Of a DNA stretch of 64,000 nucleotides, positions 1 through 18,048 are shown piece by piece. Source of the stretch: Thelephora terrestris (taxonomy: Eukaryota; Basidiomycota; Agaricomycetes; Thelephorales; Thelephoraceae). Within the stretch, counting starts at the first letter, position 1; each line of letters begins with the position of its first letter. The notes below the pieces were generated by a model that did no database searches, was not told the origin of the DNA, and saw only the letters and a program-made list of their open reading frames with translations. The DNA is taken from positions 2,170,001-2,234,000 of the forward strand of contig WIUZ02000002.1 of NCBI GenBank assembly GCA_015956445.1. The letters are read 5' to 3'. The translations under genes and the position numbers were made by a program.

Positions 1-584
1 GTGTGTTGTGACACATCCACATGGGTTATGGATGGAAAGGCATCTTCGAGTAGCACAGATCCCCCCCTTCACCTCGTCCCATATCACACATTCACATTAG
101 ACACGTATATAATTCCTGTATTACACATGAGAATGCAGTTTCGGTTTCCCCCCCTTCGTCGAGTCGAGTCGAGTCAAGTCAAGTCAGTTTAAGTCTCAAG
201 TCCAGCGGTTTCCACACTCAGTTCTCACTCTCAATAGTCGCTCGTCCCTACGGCAAAGTCATTGACACGCCCTCAGAACTCTCGCATTTCGAGCCGGTCC
301 TCTGCCTACCCTTTTCCCCACTCCCCCGATACCGGCTCTTCAGTGTATGCACAGAAGATTTCTAACATCTCAACCTAGAGCACTATGAAAGGTAACAGCA
401 ACTGGGCAAGGGCATGCCAAATGTCCACAGTGACTTTCTGAGGGACAGGACCACACTCAGTTGTTGGATGTGGATCTGGAGGAGGTTCAACAGGAGGGCT
501 GGAGGATTAAGGAGCTGTTGTGAGAATTCAGGAGTTGATCCAGAGCATGCACCAGGGGCTTGAATGGATGGTTCTTGTCATTAA
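1..584. other. Non-coding flank, nothing recognised
   Basis: I see no convincing reading frame here. A short 5-bp tandem tract (gagtc/aagtc units) lies around 158-190. The remainder is unique-looking sequence ending where copy B of the divergent two-frame element begins. The 63-codon open frame at the left edge has no recognisable features. Confidence 0.4.
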
Positions 585-1199
585 CATGTGACACGTTGAA
601 AAAGATCACTCAAGTCATACAAGAAATTTGCTCCATTTGCAGTAATAACACAAAACAAGCACGCACTTCACATGAACAACACTGTGTCATCAGACAACAA
701 TGAGCAAAATGGAAAGGATTATACACACTCTGAGAACATAAACACCTTCTCAATGTTGGATTTACCCAGCAGTCCTCACATCCCAAGCCATCCTGAAACA
801 CCCCTTCATGCATCTCTGTCACCACCTCACTCAACCCTTCACTCATTAAGTCAAACCATACTTCTCCTGGAGTTTCCCTACTTCCAGCTTCAACCTCGTC
901 CTTACTTGACGCACCTTGTTTGACGAATGACACCACTGTCAAGAAAGACTCATTGGACTCTTGCAGCTCTTTTTCAAAGTCTTCTCCATCTTAGGAATTG
1001 GAACTGGATGATAAAATGTGCAATCACTAAGCATGTAGAGGATTGGGTATATAAGGAGGAGGGATGAATGGCTCTCTTCTTTTGACCACCACTTCCCCCT
1101 CCGGCACCTAATTTGTTTGTCCCACCAGACACAAACACCATCGACTATTTTGAATGAATCGTTATCAGACCTCTTCAAATAAACCTCAGTAATCTAGAG

Positions 1200-2235
1200 C
1201 TAGCTTTTCAACATGTAGATGAGGAAGATGACCCAATCCAAAAACAATCCAGACAACACTACTACACCTCCCACATCCTTGAAATTTTCAATGACGATTC
1301 TTCCCAATCCATTTGGCCCATCCTTTACCCCTCCTCCAGATTTGAAGAAAATCTCCTCAGACGACTCCAATCTGTTTAAACAGGAGTAGAGAACCTCAAC
1401 ACCAACAACAGCCCTACCATACCACAACCTTCCTCCCAACCTGCCTCAGATGTCATTCCGATGTTGGTGGCAATGGAGGCAAACATTACAGATCTACAAG
1501 TGGAGACTCCAGCCTCCCTTTAAAGCCATGCTGACACCACTAAAGTGTCTGCTCCCATAACCCCCCCCCTCCCCCACCCCCTCCATCAAAGCTCCCACAG
1601 CCAATACCTCCCCTGAAAGGAACCTCCTTCCAAAAGCAGTGATTTCAACTAAAGGCAACACAGATCCCAAGAGCCTCCCCTCCTTTGTTGACCTGTTCAC
1701 CACCCTTAACAAATCCCTCCACAAACATCCCAAACACTTGCACGTCCGTGTGGTTGGTGTGAAGTGGACTGCAGCATCAAACCTGGTGGTTTGCGCCCAG
1801 ACACCCTCCCCCTCTGCCCTCGTTAATGCCCTCAAGGCTGTTCAGGCATCAATTACATCCAATCTACTGTATATCAAGAACATCATCCCCAACACAAGAT
1901 GGTCCTGTGTGACCCTGTCACACAAGTTCACCAGCAAGGAACCCTTAACCCAAATATACTTCGCTCATCATCAGACAGTACCCCTCATGGATGAGAAACC
2001 CCAAGAACTTCAAAAATGACCAAACATCCTCAATCTCCATTGCCTTCAAAGACCCAGATGGAACACACACCCAATGTTTCATCAGGACCTCTCTCACTGC
2101 TTTTGGCAACCTCAGGTGCACTCTCAAAGCCTGGGTCTCACCAAATAAAACAACACAGAAGCCGTAGCAAGCCTCTGCAGCAGATGTTTTAGACAAGTAA
2201 TCTGCACGCCAAGTCTCTACATACATTTGGTATCC
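1200..2235 (+). mobile_element. Fragment of a LINE (non-LTR retrotransposon) first ORF
   Basis: Plus-strand translation gives a stretch resembling the N-terminal region found ahead of the endonuclease in basidiomycete LINEs: a VKWTAASNLVV segment, then SALVNALKAVQASI, then IPNTRWSCVTLSHKFT at about 1760-1935. After a frame change, FKDPDGTHTQCFIRTSLTA and FGNLRCTLKAWVSP follow at about 2047-2135. The frame is interrupted by several stops and shifts, and no endonuclease or reverse transcriptase domain follows, so this is a 5' fragment. It lies inside copy B, between the promoter-like block and the GADHQ frame, and is also CpG-poor, so the insertion is old. Family assignment rests on remembered similarity; confirmation would need a profile search. 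Confidence 0.55.
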
Positions 2236-2986
2236 TCCCGCACCTTCCCTACATAGATTAGTGTCCTCGTGCTACACTGATATTTCCCTCATTGGTCCAG
2301 GACTCCTGCGCCTTGATACCATAACTACCCTGTGCGTGAGGTACACCTTGTATTCCTATTTCCCTTTACCCCCGCTTTTATGTTCAATTGAGTTTGTAAT
2401 TCACCAAAGATGCAAGTCAAGTAGGCCATATGGTAGCAAAGTGTCAGCACTATGAACTGGCATTAAAAAAAAAATGGGGGGGAGGGATCGCACTTTTCTT
2501 TTTCCATTCTAAATCTCTTCTGTGCTCATCTACCCCTTGCTCAATACACAAAGTAAGCCAAAGAATCCTCCTTGTGTCTTACTCTTACTGACTTATTCAA
2601 GCAAGTATTATTTTGCAAGTGTATTTCATACTCCCAATCCCTTCCCCTCTACCAATCCCACTGCTCTACCTGTTGTGCGAGATGTTCAAACTTCTATCTG
2701 AAAATGCAAGATAGTTAGAACTCTCCAACAGAACAAGACAGCAGGGCTATTATTGCATCACCCCTATTACTGTTCCCTTGTGGCACTTGATCCAGGAGTA
2801 ACTGCTCCTCCCTTCTTAGAAGGAGCAGATCATCAACTATTCCTGTGGACATCTTTGTCCCACCCAGAGACCTTAGCTTCTGTTCTGTTTAGCATCAGCA
2901 CCACTTATTAGTTGCCTCACCCTAGGGTGCTGTCAACAACTTGTGTTCACACCCACTCTCCTGCCCTTATTGTAATTTGGTTGGTG

Positions 2987-3951
2987 AACTGCTACTATCC
3001 GGGTGGAGTTGGGACACGACCTGAATAACAGGAGTGAAGGTGAGGGTTCACCAGTTGTGCAGGGGTCGGAAAGAGGGGAGAAGCTGGATAGAGGAGAGGG
3101 AATCACGGTAGGTCGTGATGTCGTCGGAATGAGAGGAGAACTCTGTACTAGCGAACTCCTTGCTAGACGATGACGATGGGCTAGGGGGCTAGGGGGCTAT
3201 TGGAACTTTGGGGCTATTGGGATCGATGTCAGAGCAAGGAACTGGGGTTTGCAATGATCAGGTTGTTCAGGCAGAAGGGAAAAGAGGTGTGAAGAGGCCC
3301 AGGGGGTTTCTTGTTCATTCAACTAGCTAGTACAGAGTATCTATAGGTAGAGATAGTGCGATCTACATGAAAGAGATGGGAAAGTCGTGAACAAATGGAA
3401 AAACGGTGGGAGAATAAGAACAGGTAAATAGAAGGGGGTAAATGAGAGTCCGACACAGGGTAGGAGAACAGGTGGGATATTGGGAAGTCAGAATGATGCT
3501 GGGACAGGCATTACCGAGAGGATGGAGCAATTGTGTGAAAAAAAGCCAAAAGGGGAAATCTACAAGCTCGAGATCAGAAGATCGTAAACGGGCAGGAGAT
3601 TGGGAACAGTTGAAGGTGATTGGCAAGCAAGGGGACAGGTTGACACATGCCTAGATGGAAGGGAACCAGACCAGAGGAGGGGACATGTCATCAGGACAAG
3701 ATGAGGGACCGGGAGACATCAGCCGATTGCAACTTCATGTGCCGTTCAGGGAAGACAGCCACAGAGGCAGAGATAGCGCAGGGTGATGTCCGTCGATGGG
3801 ATCACGGGAACAGTTCGGTGATCAGGATGTCAAGTGGGTGTGACACTCCTGTGACAGATTGAGGGGCCGTCAGTTTGCGTAGGTGGGGGTTAGTGAGGTA
3901 GAAGGAGTAGGAACTGAGACTGGTGCTTGAGTCGAAGGTCGCGCAAATAGA
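2987..3951. mobile_element. 965-bp younger insertion inside copy B
   Basis: The plus-strand frame of copy B aligns with copy A up to about 2985 and again from about 3960. The intervening 965 bp has no counterpart in copy A and is bounded by the 5-bp direct repeat TGGTG (2982-2986 and 3952-3956). CpG dinucleotides are retained here whereas the surrounding element has almost none, which fits a later arrival. Short open frames on both strands show no recognisable domain. It could be a solo terminal repeat or a non-autonomous element; the ends show no clear inverted repeat. Confidence 0.45.
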
Positions 3952-4270
3952 TGGTGGGTTATCAGACATCAAAAATGACCTACCTTGGGATATTATAGAA
4001 TACCTCCATCACTTTGAAGTGTGTAGTTGTCAAGACCTTGAACTGTTTGTTCAGCAACTACAAAAAACCAGGATGTCTTGGAGATCACTCATCCAAGGGT
4101 CCAAGGTTGACCAGTGTTCCTCTGGAGGGGAAATATAACTTGGCAAGGGAGAAGACAGCACAAAACTTCCAGTCTGCACAACCGACTGGTAGGAGGTTTC
4201 ACCAGACCTGCCTCTGACTCAATGGGCACAAGCTGCTCCTTCCTTAACCTGTCTGCACAGCTATAAGGCC

Positions 4271-9105: not shown

Positions 9106-9479
9106 TTTACCAGATTTGTTATTTTCTAACTACAGCAATTTCTAAGTATGAGAACTTCTAAATAGCATAATTTTCAAGGATAGTGACCTTTCAATAAGTT
9201 GATTTTCCAACATTACAATTGGAAGGTCTTCATTTCAATGAGATTTATGTAAACTTTTCTTTGCCTTTTCTACCATATGATAGAATATGGTTCTGTTTGT
9301 AGTCATGACCTAACCTAACCTAAACCGACCCTAACTCAACTTGATTTTGTTTTATCTTATCTCACCTAACCCCTAATCTAATCTAATCTACAAGTGTTTC
9401 ATCTAATCTACCCAAAATAGTCCACCTGACCTAACCTAACCTACAGTAAATCCAACCCACTGTAAATGTAATCTACCAT

Positions 9480-9640
9480 AAACATAATCTACGGCAAACA
9501 TAGTCTACGGCAAACATAGTCTACGGCAAACGTAGTCTACGGCAAACGTAGTCTACGGCAAACGTAGTCTACGGTAAACTTAATCTACAGTAAATGTACT
9601 CTACCGTAAACGTACTCTACCGTAAACATAATCTACCTTA
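9480..9640. repeat. 16-bp tandem repeat GTCTACGGCAAACGTA with variants
   Basis: Around ten head-to-tail units of ATCTACXGXAAACXTA type, the five central ones nearly identical. The mirror copy lies at about 11010-11190 in the other arm with the same order of variants, so this tract, unlike the AT-rich one, has stayed in register between arms. Confidence 0.85.
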
Positions 9641-9900
9641 AACTTAACCTAAACCTAACCTAACCTAAACCTAACCTAACCTAAACCTAACCTAACCTAA
9701 ACCTAACCTAACCTAAACCTAACCTAACCTAACCTAACCTACCGTCAACGTAAACCTAACCTGACCTAACCTACCCTAAACCTAACCTACCCTAAACCTA
9801 ACCTACTCTACACCTAACCTACCCTAAACCTAACCTGTCCCAAACCTAAACCTAACCTACCCTAAACCCCACCCTACAGTAGTCCACCTAACCTTACCTG
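9640..9900. repeat. Telomere-like degenerate CCTAA/CCTAAA repeats
   Basis: Runs of AACCTAACCTAAACCTAACC type repeats, more than ten in a row, degenerating outward into ACCTACCCTAA variants. The mirror tract is at about 10760-11010. The unit is TTAGG/TTTAGG on the other strand, close to but not the canonical TTAGGG telomere repeat. Confidence 0.85.
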
Positions 9901-11562
9901 ACCCTGTTCTAAAGTAGCCTTACCCAACCCAATATGGTCTACTCGACCTAACCTAACTAAATCTATCTGGCCCTGACCTGACCTAACCTGATCTAACCCA
10001 GCCTAGCATAACCTAACCTGATCTGCAAAAATGTGAACCTAGCTCAACCTATCCTCACCCAGCCCATTAGTATGTAACTTGGTTTATGGGAACACAGGAT
10101 GAACCACACACTTCCCAACTACAAGCTGACAATTGCTCAAGTGCATCTACTTTGCTGGACCTACAAGCCAGTGGACCATAAGCCTATATGCCCACAAACC
10201 CATGGGGACCTATACTCAGTACATGTGACAAGCCATATTCTGTTCCAGACTGCAACCTGGCTGCAACCCAAGCCCTTTCACCCTGCAGGCTAATGGACTC
10301 ATCAACTCAAACCCTTACAGATCTGTAGGCCCATAATACACCAACTGGCTAATAGGTCCAGCTAGGTGGACAAGTTTGGGTTGCAGTCAGGTTGCAGTCT
10401 GGAACAGAATATGGCTTGTCACATGTACTGAGTATAGGTCCCCATGGGTTTGTGGGCATATAGGCTTATGGTCCACTGGCTTGTAGGTCCAGCAAAGTAG
10501 ATGCACTTGAGCAATTGTCAGCTTGTAGTTGGGAAGTGTGTGGTTCATCCTGTGTTCCCATAAACCAAGTTACATACTAATGGGCTGGGTGAGGATAGGT
10601 TGAGCTAGGTTCACATTTTTGCAGATCAGGTTAGGTTATGCTAGGCTGGGTTAGATCAGGTTAGGTCAGGTCAGGGCCAGATAGATTTAGTTAGGTTAGG
10701 TCGAGTAGACCATATTGGGTTGGGTAAGGCTACTTTAGAACAGGGTCAGGTAAGGTTAGGTGGACTACTGTAGGGTGGGGTTTAGGGTAGGTTAGGTTTA
10801 GGTTTGGGACAGGTTAGGTTTAGGGTAGGTTAGGTGTAGAGTAGGTTAGGTTTAGGGTAGGTTAGGTTTAGGGTAGGTTAGGTCAGGTTAGGTTTACGTT
10901 GACGGTAGGTTAGGTTAGGTTAGGTTTAGGTTAGGTTAGGTTTAGGTTAGGTTAGGTTTAGGTTAGGTTAGGTTTAGGTTAGGTTAGGTTTAGGTTAGGT
11001 TAGGTTTAGGTTAAGTTTAAGGTAGATTATGTTTACGGTAGAGTACGTTTACGGTAGAGTACATTTACTGTAGATTAAGTTTACCGTAGACTACGTTTGC
11101 CGTAGACTACGTTTGCCGTAGACTACGTTTGCCGTAGACTATGTTTGCCGTAGACTATGTTTGCCGTAGATTATGTTTATGGTAGATTACATTTACAGTG
11201 GGTTGGATTTACTGTAGGTTAGGTTAGGTCAGGTGGACTATTTTGGGTAGATTAGATGAAACACTTGTAGATTAGATTAGATTAGGGGTTAGGTGAGATA
11301 AGATAAAACAAAATCAAGTTGAGTTAGGGTCGGTTTAGGTTAGGTTAGGTCATGACTACAAACAGAACCATATTCTATCATATGGTAGAAAAGGCAAAGA
11401 AAAGTTTACATAAATCTCATTGAAATGAAGACCTTCCAATTGTAATGTTGGAAAATCAACTTATTGAAAGGTCACTATCCTTGAAAATTATGCTATTTAG
11501 AAGTTCTCATACTTAGAAATTGCTGTAGTTAGAAAAATAACAAATCTGGTAAAAAATAGAAT

Positions 11563-11782: not shown

Positions 11783-14700
11783 GGTAAAATTTCCTTTTCA
11801 GGAAGTCACATGATCCCATTATGTAATCCATCAAATTTCCTCTTATGGTATTTCCTTTTATAGTATTTTTTTTTATAGACATTCCATCTATTCTGTTTCC
11901 CATCATTGCTTACATAAGCCATCAATATTTCCTTTCTGGGATATTCCCAAAAAGGAAACCCACCCAGACTCCCAGGCAATCCACACCCTCGGCACCTGCC
12001 TAATTGGGACCTCTCCCATCAACCCAAAACAGTGGGTGAGTATGGGTTGAGCAGTACTCAAAGTTATCATGATAACTTTGAGGGTGAAATCTGACCAGTT
12101 ATCACACTTTACTCAGTAAAAGTTAACTACCACTAGTGCAAGGATTTTGCCGTGTTTTTGACCCACTATGGTGTTGCGGGACGTACTGAAGGTACCTGTG
12201 TTCTCATGTCGGGGACCAAAGTATGGGTTGAAGTTGATGCCAGTGTATGTTGTTTCACCTCTTCATGGAATCTTTCTTGTTCACCTTTCTTTGACAGGAA
12301 GCTTTAGGTGGTGCCCACAGGATTAGGTTAGGGATTCCACCTGAGACCGTCTTGACGAGGGACTGGCTTGTAGGCAATTTAGATGAATGTGCTGTACATC
12401 TGTATCCCATACCATCACCGTGACGGGACCGATCGCTTATTCACTGACCTCAAATACCACCTCCACTCATCCCACACTTTCTGTTTTCTGCATCTCAACT
12501 TTCGCCGCCATTTACCGATGCCCAACACAAAGCTCACCCCAAAACAAAAATCTAAGAAACACCGTACCCCTTGTCTATGTGGCTGTGGGTCAACATGCCT
12601 GAAGACCATCGCCACTCACCAAAAACTGCTTTCGAAGAGAGCAAACGTCAATTCCTTGAGCCTCGCCCGCTCGGTTGCCGGCCTCACTCGTGTTCCCCGC
12701 TTGATCCCTACAAAGCAGCCCTCTCGCCGGAAGCCAAAGCAGTCTACAAGCCCCCCTGAAGACCTGATGCAGGTTGACGACACGCTCACTCATGGGTCCA
12801 ACTTCACAGGACCCTCAACCTCAGCCCATGCAAGCCCCCCTCCGTATCTGGCTGTTGACCGCGCGGGCCAGCAAGGACGTGAAGATGAAGATTTGGTTTC
12901 CGAGCCTGGCTCACCTGTACCATCTGAGGATGAAGATGATACTGGAGATAGGTCGCTGGACCATGATGAGCCCAAGTTTGTGAGCGATGATGAAGGCCCA
13001 CCTGCTCATGTGGAGATCCCAGCGAGCAAACAGCTTACGGCTGATTTCCAGCTGCGTGCAGCAAAAGCTGGTACGTTTGCCATCATGACTGCATTCACCA
13101 AACATGTGTTTGATTTTGTCTCCAGCACAGGAGCATTTGGATCCAGATGACCTTGACACCATCTGTGCGTTCAATTACCACATAACAAAGTCAACGACGA
13201 GAGACGCATTCGAAAGTTTACGACACGCTTTCCCGACCCGGGTGCAAAACGTGAAATCGTTGTACCAAACTCAACGGAGGATTGCCGAGCTCTCTGGATT
13301 GAAGCCCGAATACTCGGACTGCTGCGCAAAGAGCTGCTGCTGTTTTACGGGCCCGTACGAAAATCTCGATCGGTGCCCGTTCCCCGACTGTCAGGAACCA
13401 CGGTACGATAGTTCTGGCAAACCACGGATGCGGTTTCAACACCTCCCCGTTGGACCCCGACTCGAGGCAATGTTCCTTAACCAAAACATAATCGAGTTGC
13501 TGGACTACCGAACAACCCGCACCTCTGGTGAACATTCAGAAAGAGTGTCTGACGTCTTCGATGGGAAGCTCTACCGCAATCTCTGTGACAAGTTTGTTCG
13601 AGTGGGCGACCAGACCTTCAATCACAAATACTTTCAGGACAGGCGCGATATCGCTCTGGGCTTATCTCTCGATGGCTTCCCCATTTTCAATAAAAGGAAC
13701 CTTTCTGCATGGCCAGTCATTCTCATAAACTTCAGCCTTCCTCCCGACATCCGAACCCACCTCCTCCATCTGCTGTGTTATGCAGTGATCCCATCACCAA
13801 AAGCTGTCAAAGACATGGATTCGTTCCTCTACCCACTCTATCGTGAACTTGAAAAGCTCGCAAAAGGCATTTCAAGTTTGGATCTCCGTTCCAAGGAATT
13901 GTTTCTCCTACGCGCCTTTCTCATCCTTATTTTTGGAGACATGCCAGCCGTCGCCAAGGTTATGCGAATGAAAGGACACAATGGCTTCTGCCCCTGCCGC
14001 TTCTGTGAAATTTGTGGAGTCCGTTACCCTGCGGGAAGCGTTTACTATGTCCCACTAGCACGTTTCAATGGAGAAGAGTCGTACAATGCGATGGCCCTCA
14101 AAAAACGTACCCACCAGCGATTCCTTGACCAGGCAGAGAAGGTCATCACAGCCCCAACTGGTGCCGAAGAAGACAGGCTTTCGATGAAATACGGGATCAA
14201 GGGGGTTCCACTCTTCTCATTTTTTGGTTCACTCACTCTTCCGTTGTCTTTCCCCCTCGACTTCATGCACCTCATCTTTGAGAATCTTGTCCCAAATCTT
14301 GTGGCCCACTATACTGGAAATTTCAAGGGTCTTGACGACGGTGCTGAAGAATACATCCTCCCACCACATACCTGGTCCGAAATTTGTTTGATTGCTTCCG
14401 CATCAGGCGACACTATCCCATCACAGTTTGGAGCCCGAGTGCCAAATCTTGAGAAGGAACGCTCTCACATGACGGCAGAAGCGTGGTCTTTCTGGGTTCT
14501 CTACATTGCCCCAATCATCCTCTGAAACCGTTTCACAAAACTTCGCTACTACAGACACTTCATGAAACTTGTTCACCTCATCCACCTTTGCCTTTCCTAT
14601 GACATGAAGGCAAGCGACATTGATACAATCCGAGTTGGCTTTCAGGAATGGGTTGTAGAATATGAAAAGTGAGTGTCACTATTTCCATCGCACAAATCTC

Positions 14701-15328
14701 ATATGTTTGCACTGTAGGATATTTTATCAATGTGACCCTGAAAGGATATCCACCTGCCCAGTGACAGTCCACTCACTGCTTCATGTTGCCAATGGGATTG
14801 AGACTGCTGGTCCGGTTTGGGCCTATTGGTCATTTGTCATGGAGCGATACTGTGGATTCCTCAAACGCGATGGTGTCCGAAATCGGCGAAAACCCTATGC
14901 GAGCCTCGACAACCGTGTTCGACATGTTGCGCAACTCAACACAACAAAGATCAGGTATCATCTAGTTGACCTCCTATCGCTTAAGGCACCTGATAATGAG
15001 GGGGAAGTTTTTCCAGAACGTATGTGCTAGTATTCTCCAATCACTACTGTGTACAGCAACTGATTGCTTTCTGCTTTTAGATCCTCGCCGGATATTTATG
15101 CGGCCACGGAAAACGCTCAAGCTGGAAGAAGATGTTCGCACAGTTCTCGTCAAGGCTCTCATCACCAGATATTCACCCCTCCAAGGTCGAAAAATCTCAG
15201 CGTTCGATGCCAGGAAGTGCATCCCAACAGAAGCGGTCCTTCAATGGGGACGTGTTCAGATTCCTGAAGGTGGTGACAGGATGTGCTGCCATAAGATGAT
15301 TAAGCCGGTGTCAGGGTTGTAGGCCTGC

Positions 15329-15952
15329 TTACTGTCTGTGGGGCGCTAGAGGATTAGCGGATGGGTGAGGGGTGTCGGGTCTGGTTCTGAAGGGGGTTCC
15401 GGGTGTGGAGACGAGGGGAGGAGGGATATCGAGAGAGAGGGGTGACTCGGTCTGATAAGGGTGAACGGGTGAGTGGTAGTCTTGGCAGAACTGGTTGAGT
15501 TGCTGCACAAACGGCTCGAAGTCTTGGTCGCTAAGACGTTCGAAGTTGACGAGATATTCTATGACAGAATAAGGTAGTTCAGTTGGGATTTCCCACCAAA
15601 GAACGATAATAGCAGGGGAGTGGGTGTGGATGTTAGTCGTAAGATGAACACGTGGAGAGGGAAAGTAAAAGGCTGGACTAATACTGAAGTAGACGGTCGC
15701 AAGGACGCTCTCAGTAAGATCTGAATTCCAAAGGAATTGATGATCTGCTCCTAGTAGGAAGGGGGGAGTGGTGACTCCGGCGTCGAGAGCTGCAAAGGGT
15801 CGGTAGTAAGGGAAATGAGTAAGTAAACCGGCGGTTCGGTTTACTTGAAGACTTCTGATGAGCTTATACTCCCAGATAGATCTTCTAGCGTCAGGGACGA
15901 CGGGTCGCTGGACTGGACTGGTGGAGGGGAATGGGTTAGGGGCACTGAACAT
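15329..15952 (-). CDS. Leftward ORF of the divergent element, unknown function
   Basis: An uninterrupted 207-codon frame starting MFSAPNPFPSTSPVQRPVVP. It has a hydrophobic/aromatic middle (LLGADHQFLWNSDL; YFSISPAFYFPSPRVHL; HTHSPAIIVLWWEIP), an amphipathic stretch (LPYSVIEYLVNFERLSDQDF), and a Pro-rich tail ending HPSANPLAPHRQ. The part from VTTPPF to LFVQQL is conserved in copy B, which indicates past selection on the protein. I recognise no domain; the pattern does not match transposase, gag, protease or integrase motifs I know. It ends only about 15 bp from the left edge of the element. Confidence 0.5.
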   Translation of the reverse strand: MFSAPNPFPSTSPVQRPVVPDARRSIWEYKLIRSLQVNRTAGLLTHFPYYRPFAALDAGVTTPPFLLGADHQFLWNSDLTESVLATVYFSISPAFYFPSPRVHLTTNIHTHSPAIIVLWWEIPTELPYSVIEYLVNFERLSDQDFEPFVQQLNQFCQDYHSPVHPYQTESPLSLDIPPPLVSTPGTPFRTRPDTPHPSANPLAPHRQ

Positions 15953-16583
15953 ACACTAGCAGGAGGATTCCTGCTGAAATGAGTCAGAAGAGGTAAGACG
16001 TGAGAAGAATTTCTCAGCTTACTTTTATTCGAGTTATGGGTAGAGGAGTACAGAAGAGATTGAGAATGGGGAAAAGAAGGAGCGAACGCTCTTCCTTATA
16101 TACCCAATCCTCTACAGGAGTCATTATTCTACAACGAGTCAAACAAGAGTCAACATGGTCTGTGCGTAGTTTAGGGTAGGGTAAATGAGTCAGAATGAGG
16201 GGACTTAGGACGACCGATAGTAATTACTCATACGGGAACAATAGGGGCGCGGGTCAATGGAAGTATTCAGGGATTTCTCGTGTTTCGTGGTAGCAATAGA
16301 AGCGTGATGGGGATTTCTCTGGATCCATGGCAGCAATAGAAGCGTGGTGGGGATTTCCCATGATCGATGGGGATTTCTCTGAATTGATGGGATCTCGATC
16401 GGGGTTGAGGGTTCGTTTGTCCTAATTGGGACTTTAATGGATAATAGGTTATTGTTTTCCCCTTTCGGTTCCCTTTTGAGTCAGGGCGTATTTAAGTCAG
16501 GGGGATTAATGATCGTTCCCCTCATCGTCTCTTTTCCACTCCCACCAAACACCAATACCACCTCTCAAATATTCAGTACTACT

Positions 16584-17487
16584 ATGTCTTCCTTCGTTGC
16601 CAACAACGTCGTGCTCAACGCTGCCGCCACCCCCTTCACCCCGTCCTTCGAGACGGGTGCTCCCTACAACGTGGAGCAACACTTGTACGATACTCCCGCC
16701 AACATCGCTCACGACAATCAGGTCGCCGTCGACTTCCTCACCGCCCATAACGCTCCTGCCGAGTTCTGGGAACAGGCCGGTTACGAAGATCCCAGACTCT
16801 CTGGTCCTGTGGTCCGGGCTCTACACCCTGGAGCCGTTCAGTTATTGGACGTCATGGAGAGGGATAGGGAGGATAGGATCGCGAAATTGGAGAAGCGGGT
16901 GGACCTCATGTACGTCATCATGAATAGCTTGAATGATGACTTCTCTCATTTTGCTTTGGAACATTGGGGACCTTTCCAGGCATCTCTCTTCCGATATTTC
17001 GGACACCAATGTCACGGGACTTATTGCACCGACCCCCCTTGCAAGTCCCCAGTCGTCCCTTCGCCACCGCCAGGATCAGGGTGTTCCTCTCCCTCCATCC
17101 CCTCCCTGGAGTCCTGCCCCAGTTCGCCAGATGGTGGAGAGGTCCCAGAGGAAGAAGACCCGCAAGAGTCCGATGACTCGTTCTGGTCAACGTTGTCGTC
17201 CCTCCGACAAGTCACGTCAGGTGAGGATGAAGTTGAAGGTGGAGGTGGCGGGTCTCCAAGACCGCTATGGGTTCTCCTTAGTGAGCGGGGCCTTAGCGGA
17301 CGTGCGACGAGAGATGTATGATAGTTTATCTCATGATGTGTTGGGGTGTAGGGAGTGTTGGCAGGATCCGGCGACGCGAGAGTGGTCGTACTGTCCTGAG
17401 AGTATTCATAACCCTCACCACTTCGCTCATCGTTGCCCTCTTCCCCAGAACTGTTCATGTGATGTTGACCCGTTCGTTCTTGTCTGA
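16584..17487 (+). CDS. Rightward gene of the divergent element with a Cys/His-rich C-terminus; broken
   Basis: The frame opens at a Met (MSSFVANNVVLNAAATPF) just after a CT-rich leader. It contains a polar N-terminal domain (VEQHLYDTPANIAHDNQVAV; LTAHNAPAEFWEQAGYEDPR), a probable coiled-coil around MERDREDRIAKLEKRVDLMY, and a CHGTYCTDPPC cluster. A Pro/Ser/acidic linker leads to the C-terminal block GCRECW...SIHNPHHFAHRCPLPQNC. That block is shared with copy B, where all the Cys and His positions are kept, suggesting a metal-binding fold. The arrangement (helical N-terminus, acidic linker, Cys-rich tail) is reminiscent of nucleic-acid-binding proteins of mobile elements, but this is inference. 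The gene does not read through intact as it stands. Confidence 0.45.
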
Positions 17488-18048
17488 GTTTGTAGTTCTT
17501 TTTAGCTCTTTTTGTACTATTATTACTGCGAATAAGACCAATGTCTTGAATCACTTGTGAGATCTTGGCTACTATGTCACGCGTTCGTGACAGCCGGGAT
17601 CATTTAGCCGTGATTGCACATATGTTCGGGTGTGTCTCACGATAATTGTTTCTCACTCACCATCTGATTCCATGTCACTTGTTTGTAGTACGAAGCCACA
17701 GTCGACCGCAACGCGAGAGTGAAGAGTAAACGGCCAGATATGGTACTTGGAACATTCTTTGGACAACTCCAACGAATCATCAAGATTGATGTGCCTGCAA
17801 CTTTGATATCATACCTCAACCTCAAGGAACCGGTGACATTATTTTATGGAATTGTCAAGCAGTGTAATGCAAGACAGAGCAGGGAGGGGTTTTGGGAGTA
17901 TGCTGAACTTGGTGGACTTGAGGCGGTCGACATCGGGCTTGTGCAGTGTGTTGTTGGCAGGATTTTCGACCGAGGGAAATGGGTAATGATTGATAGGAGC
18001 GGAGAACGAGCACATGCGGACATTGAAACTGATGAGCTGGATCTATAA

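Follow-up and report, generated by a model that had tools for sequence, protein, structure and literature searches.

A compact gene-bearing mobile element of Thelephora terrestris with TG...CA ends and no recognised transposase

The window, a stretch of 64,000 nucleotides of the Thelephora terrestris genome, contains a 2.3-kb element, here called family I, which had been described from its letters as an unrecognised compact bidirectional mobile element; this description holds, with hundreds of copies sharing the same ends, genes under selection and no credible relatives in the libraries searched. It is probably, though far from certainly, a lone-unit mobile element with ends of the integrase or transposase type, served by an enzyme acting in trans, and not one LTR of a longer element. 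The features of the window copy and its insertion site are as follows.

13104..14525, plus strand: frame of the host gene, a tnp2-type (CACTA) transposase, which the element interrupts further downstream
15304..15308, no strand: left-hand GCCGG of the 5-bp target duplication, from flank reading and empty sites
15309..17592, plus strand: whole element, 2,284 bp, TGTCAGGG...GTTCGTGACA; 30 full-length copies read
15309..15331, plus strand: conserved 5' end, with three variants in the 29 copies
15329..15952, minus strand: gene A, 207 aa, stop included
15974..16022, minus strand: candidate leader intron of gene A, GTAAGC...TTTCAG, putative, by eye
16096..16102, minus strand: TATA box of gene A, TATATAAG
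16270..16357, no strand: tandem repeat of a 40-bp unit (2.2 copies), central region
16489..16495, plus strand: TATA-like box of gene B, TATTTAA
16584..17321, plus strand: frame B1 of gene B, 245 aa, stop included
16933..17487, plus strand: frame B2 of gene B, +1 relative to B1, stop included, a constrained frame
17575..17592, plus strand: palindromic 3' end, TGTCACGCGTTCGTGACA
17593..17597, no strand: right-hand GCCGG of the target duplication, from flank reading

The window copy begins with TGTCAGGGTTGTAGGCC and ends with GTCACGCGTTCGTGACA, and GCCGG lies on either side. The sequence-only reading had placed an exact insertion at 15314-17574 with TGTCA as the flanking repeat; the insertion is exact, but the true coordinates are 15309-17592, since TGTCA belongs to the element's own ends (TGTCA...TGACA) and is thereby ruled out as the target duplication, which is GCCGG. 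A hAT reading based on CAGGG ends was also ruled out by flank reasoning, as an 8-bp duplication does not fit. Only TGTCA/TGACA is inverted at the ends and no long terminal repeat was found, in agreement with the reported lack of terminal inverted repeats. The interrupted gene is, as had been proposed, a transposase gene, of the tnp2 type (PF02992, E 3.6e-18), with a further match to DUF4218 below the Pfam cut-off. When the joined flanks (351 bases) were used as the query in a search for empty sites, two uninterrupted paralogues of this gene were found, at C12:837500 (99%, 351/351 bases) and C5:867980 (94%, 351/351), the remaining matches being the window's own two flanks and one at 72%. Each paralogue has a single target pentamer, GCCAG or GCTGG, one base off GCCGG. 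Compared by eye, the host copy and the first paralogue differ at only 4 of the 351 sites, which makes the insertion recent by comparison with their divergence.

Further copies with the same ends, the lack of which had been set beforehand as one refutation test, number in the hundreds. In the 40.6 Mb genome the 3'-end pattern has 351 matches with at most 2 mismatches (3 for the reversed-pattern control) and the 5'-end pattern 328 with at most 3 (control 5). Exact 5-bp duplications flank 29 of the 30 full-length copies, defined among the fetched loci as having ends 2,100-2,450 bp apart; the only copy without identical flanks (L014) adjoins a second family I fragment. The median pairwise identity of these copies, a non-random set chosen in most cases for resemblance to the window copy, is 88%; the highest identity between independent copies is 99.3%, in a pair whose duplications differ. 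Among 40 of 399 candidates scored, the window copy has its best DNA relative at 94% identity, and within the sample few copies have near-identical siblings; in so far as this partial sample is representative, both would fit rapid turnover or conservative movement. One locus (L015, C13:552900-558600) has two identical inverted copies, both with a GCTAC duplication and identical flanks, which is an inverted segmental duplication around one insertion. The window itself also holds an old, decayed relative of family I on the minus strand at 576-4087, with A-like pieces at 2621-2980 and 3965-4087 (58% and 46% amino acid identity, internal stops), B-like pieces at 664-1077 and, at 576, a 3' end that carries a comparable palindrome; no 5' end was found for it there.

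Gene A is under strong purifying selection. Over 29 copies pN is 0.031 and pS 0.40, giving a dN/dS of 0.057, compared with 0.68-0.87 for non-coding control frames. None of the 29 has an in-frame stop in the window-aligned codons; one (L022) has a 1-base insertion in the gene, and a stop is found in a further, interrupted copy (L033). Four additional copies of gene A, picked by protein similarity, differ from the window copy at 42-58 of 621 sites, 38-54 of these being third positions. In the best 150 matches for each frame, lists that are biased toward intact copies and in which frameshifts are not counted, gene A is stop-free in 141 (413 candidates) and B1 in 132 (391 candidates).

The two long frames originally described do point outward, but the right-hand one consists of two overlapping constrained frames. 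Constraint is seen in B1 up to about 17000 (dN/dS 0.137 before the overlap) and in B2 after about 17180, with little variation at any codon position in between. Stops within 16933-17315 occur in B1 of one of the 29 copies, in B2 of none and in the third frame of all 29, while length differences in gene B, present in six of the 29, are always multiples of three. Both frames remain long in divergent copies with 65-76% protein identity, and two copies in one locus (L042) have one stop each, in B1 of one and in B2 of the other. The ATG of B2 is not conserved among divergent copies, so that splicing or a frameshift probably links B2 to B1. The C-terminal end of B2 is a Cys/His-rich stretch that is conserved across 20 aligned copies. 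Omega-like values are higher for changes private to one copy than for shared changes in all frames (A, 0.35 vs 0.09, constraint thus being weaker on private changes; B1, 0.79 vs 0.23; B2, 0.29 vs 0.17), which we read as a long functional history of the genes and then, once a copy has inserted, a brief and almost neutral existence. The TATA boxes of the two genes are conserved in 29/29 copies for A and in at least 25/29 for B, marking two divergent promoter-like regions within the shared central region noted earlier.

The frames had been said to resemble no known transposase, integrase, reverse transcriptase or recombinase, and no credible match emerged from Pfam, PHROGs or PDB sequences. In Pfam nothing scored above the cut-off for A, B1 or B2; the weak matches of B2 to RAB3GAP2_C, in 12 of 20 members with a best E of 0.0034, and to DUF7500, in 14 of 20 with a best E of 0.021, were taken as chance. 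PHROGs gave no match below E 0.4 and PDB sequences none below E 0.03; weak PDB profile matches of B1 (four, E 0.035-0.55) and of A (one, E 0.77) were likewise attributed to chance. Three pattern matches to gene A relatives in IMG/VR contigs yielded none that was confirmed. Structure models of A and B1, with mean pLDDT of 39.4 and 40.7, are unusable. Among the papers listed in literature searches, no such element was recognised.

Two other families with similar ends and other genes were encountered. Family II consists of lone units of 3.3 kb, TGTCAGGGCCAC...GTTCCTGACA, seen at L010:1093-4382 and in nine other fetched loci, often inside family I; seven of the 10 copies read have an exact 5-bp duplication. 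It has a codon-constrained gene spread over several exons (9 copies), and for two of its frames Pfam gave no match. Half of its listed matches (30 of 60, from 40 of 634 candidates scored) cover the whole unit. Over its first ~720 bases, which hold no long frame, there is little variation at any position. The lone unit of family III, TGTCAGGCCGACG...ATCATCACA, measures 2,417 bp and has the duplication ATCAT (L039:2121-4537); a TATA box and an apparent intron-containing gene reading as coiled-coil can be made out in it by eye, and six other loci contain pieces of it (L025, L027, L029, L040, L042, L048). The main gene is directed toward the same end in all three families, which supports a class, although LTR orientation would look alike. 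Tentatively, the families may belong to an undescribed superfamily of lone 2.3-3.3 kb units with TGTCAGG...CA ends, 5-bp duplications and different selected genes, without a known transposase, that would either use a new recombinase or be co-mobilised segments sharing one trans integrase. Units starting TGTCAGGGAG (L039, L043) were rejected as members, having no matching end with a 5-bp duplication and lying in inverted repeats.

As a lone unit, the element would insert as a single 2.3-kb DNA segment with TGTCA...TGACA ends and a 5-bp target duplication, presumably through DDE-type strand transfer at the TG/CA ends; judging by these ends and the duplication, the unit behaves as if inserted by integrase-type chemistry. 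The catalytic enzyme, not recognisable within the element, would most likely be supplied in trans, and each copy would need its A and B factors in order to spread itself, for example in end-binding, targeting, assembly or anti-silencing. Since the other two families combine similar ends with other genes, the class may share one mobilising machinery. Insertion as a lone unit is supported by the exact duplication that each of 29 of the 30 copies has for itself together with the empty site, by the constrained, mostly stop-free genes and by families II and III also reading as single units. Against it, no enzyme was recognised in the element, and the genes of a trans-mobilised element would not be expected to be so conserved unless they were cis-acting. 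At L056 (C34:2452300-2454300) lies a gene with introns and an integrase core (PF24764, two frames with E 1.2e-22 and 7.4e-21), which was reached from four short rve matches among the 144 integrase matches of the genome; as regards a candidate trans enzyme, no TGTCA...TGACA unit was noticed in the 3 kb read around this gene and no link is claimed.

The main rival, rather unlikely in our view, is that the units are solo LTRs: long, gene-bearing LTRs of a retrotransposon whose internal regions have nearly all been removed by LTR-LTR recombination. Solo LTRs of Ty3/Gypsy-type retrotransposons have TG...CA ends, a 5-bp duplication, no terminal inverted repeats and an internal promoter-like region. 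Family I has each of these, with the fixed short duplication, 5 bp, in 29 of 30 copies, and together with the shared orientation of the main genes they are what solo LTRs would lead one to expect, which weighs against the lone unit; the genome also has many LTR-type integrase genes (the 144 matches). What family I does not have, in the sample, is a two-LTR partner, a primer site or an internal region, and its unit is filled by selected genes of unrecognised type. The earlier statement that it lacks LTRs should be qualified, since the whole unit has the ends and the 5-bp duplication of a single LTR.

The flanks and spacing of the ends bear on this rival most directly. Pairing 73 of 100 listed 3' ends with 99 of 100 listed 5' ends gave 56 neighbouring same-strand pairs, of which 38 span 2,225-2,375 bp. 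The longer spans that were read (L029-L033, L035, L036, L039) are each interrupted by other insertions; five of ~5.3-5.7 kb (L029-L033), considered as a longer autonomous version, are all family I interrupted by family II. The 18 same-strand 3'-to-5' gaps of less than 25 kb have no recurrent size, and hence no recurrent LTR-to-LTR spacing, and by eye none holds a same-strand integrase from among the 144 genome matches, one gap (C11) holding an opposite-strand match. TGG, as in a primer site, occurs within 6 nt of the 3' end at 31 ends with 29 different spacers; the spacer G precedes it three times, and two of these flanks differ when read further. Primer sites without the initial TGG were covered by comparing 143 3' flanks, drawn from 300 of 454 rows with some chance matches (1, 8 and 30 rows in reversed-pattern controls): 142 are distinct, the single repeat being the inverted duplication in L015. 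Among the sampled ends, no two copies were seen to enclose a common internal region in direct orientation, and no primer site or internal flank is common to the ends read. The distinct flanks, the 29 spacers at 31 ends and the lack of a recurrent gap size all support lone units, although, with flanks read for all but ~200 of the ~350 3' ends, a few full-length elements may have been missed. The same genome contains an ordinary gypsy-type element (L049, C60:938500-948400) with a 1,638-aa frame, the 5-bp duplication ACCTT and two 355-bp LTRs, TGTTGA...TCAACA, that are 99.4% identical; that both its LTRs are readily seen is a contrast in favour of family I being lone units. The copies of family I moreover look young, so that loss of every internal region would need great speed. 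If they are solo LTRs after all, the full-length retrotransposon form is absent or very rare.

It is more doubtful still that family I is a self-moving DNA transposon that encodes, in its own protein A or B, a transposase or recombinase of a new kind. Conservation of the genes in most copies, as if each copy needs its own product, and of the Cys/His-rich end of B2 would suit this, but known recombinases are unmatched by A or B, and the proteins are short, with structure models (pLDDT 39 and 41) that are no help. That family I is not mobile but an ordinary pair of host genes multiplied by segmental duplication, for which the strong selection and the one inverted duplication (L015) might speak, is highly improbable. 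The target duplications, exact at 5 bp in 29 of 30 copies, refute it as the main explanation, and the empty site and the nested insertions also count against it. A MITE or other non-autonomous derivative was also rejected, the genes being coding and under selection and the loci read containing no autonomous partner with the same ends.

Among described DNA transposons, Ginger1 and Ginger2/TDD come closest in their ends: the sections of PMC2836005 drawn on here give TGTNR ends, shared with Ty3/Gypsy-type LTRs, and 4- or 5-bp duplications, as compared with the TGTNR termini and 5-bp duplication of family I. Ginger elements, according to the same sections, have terminal inverted repeats of ~40-300 bp and a gypsy-type integrase as transposase, whereas family I has no inverted repeats of at least 40 bp, and none of A, B1 and B2 matches an integrase. 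IS481EU and some GingerRoot elements share TG...CA-type ends with family I; as portrayed in the relevant part of PMC10045372, IS481EU, IS3EU and GingerRoot differ in having terminal inverted repeats and a DDE transposase, with duplications of ~4, 15 and 25 bp for IS481EU and 6 bp for IS3EU and GingerRoot. PlavakaA of Agaricomycotina, in the portion of PMC12730594 concerned with it, has similar TGT..ACA termini but 2-bp duplications and an EnSpm-related transposase.

Repeat annotation would probably class units of this kind as solo LTRs and discard them. Should the lone-unit explanation be true, some fungal 'solo LTRs' would be a separate class of gene-bearing transposon without a visible transposase, and a search for the mobilising enzyme would be a concrete experiment. 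Elsewhere in the window, at 9469-11017, there are two long AACCT/TTAGG-like arrays in opposite orientation that resemble telomere repeats, with other tandem repeats nearby.
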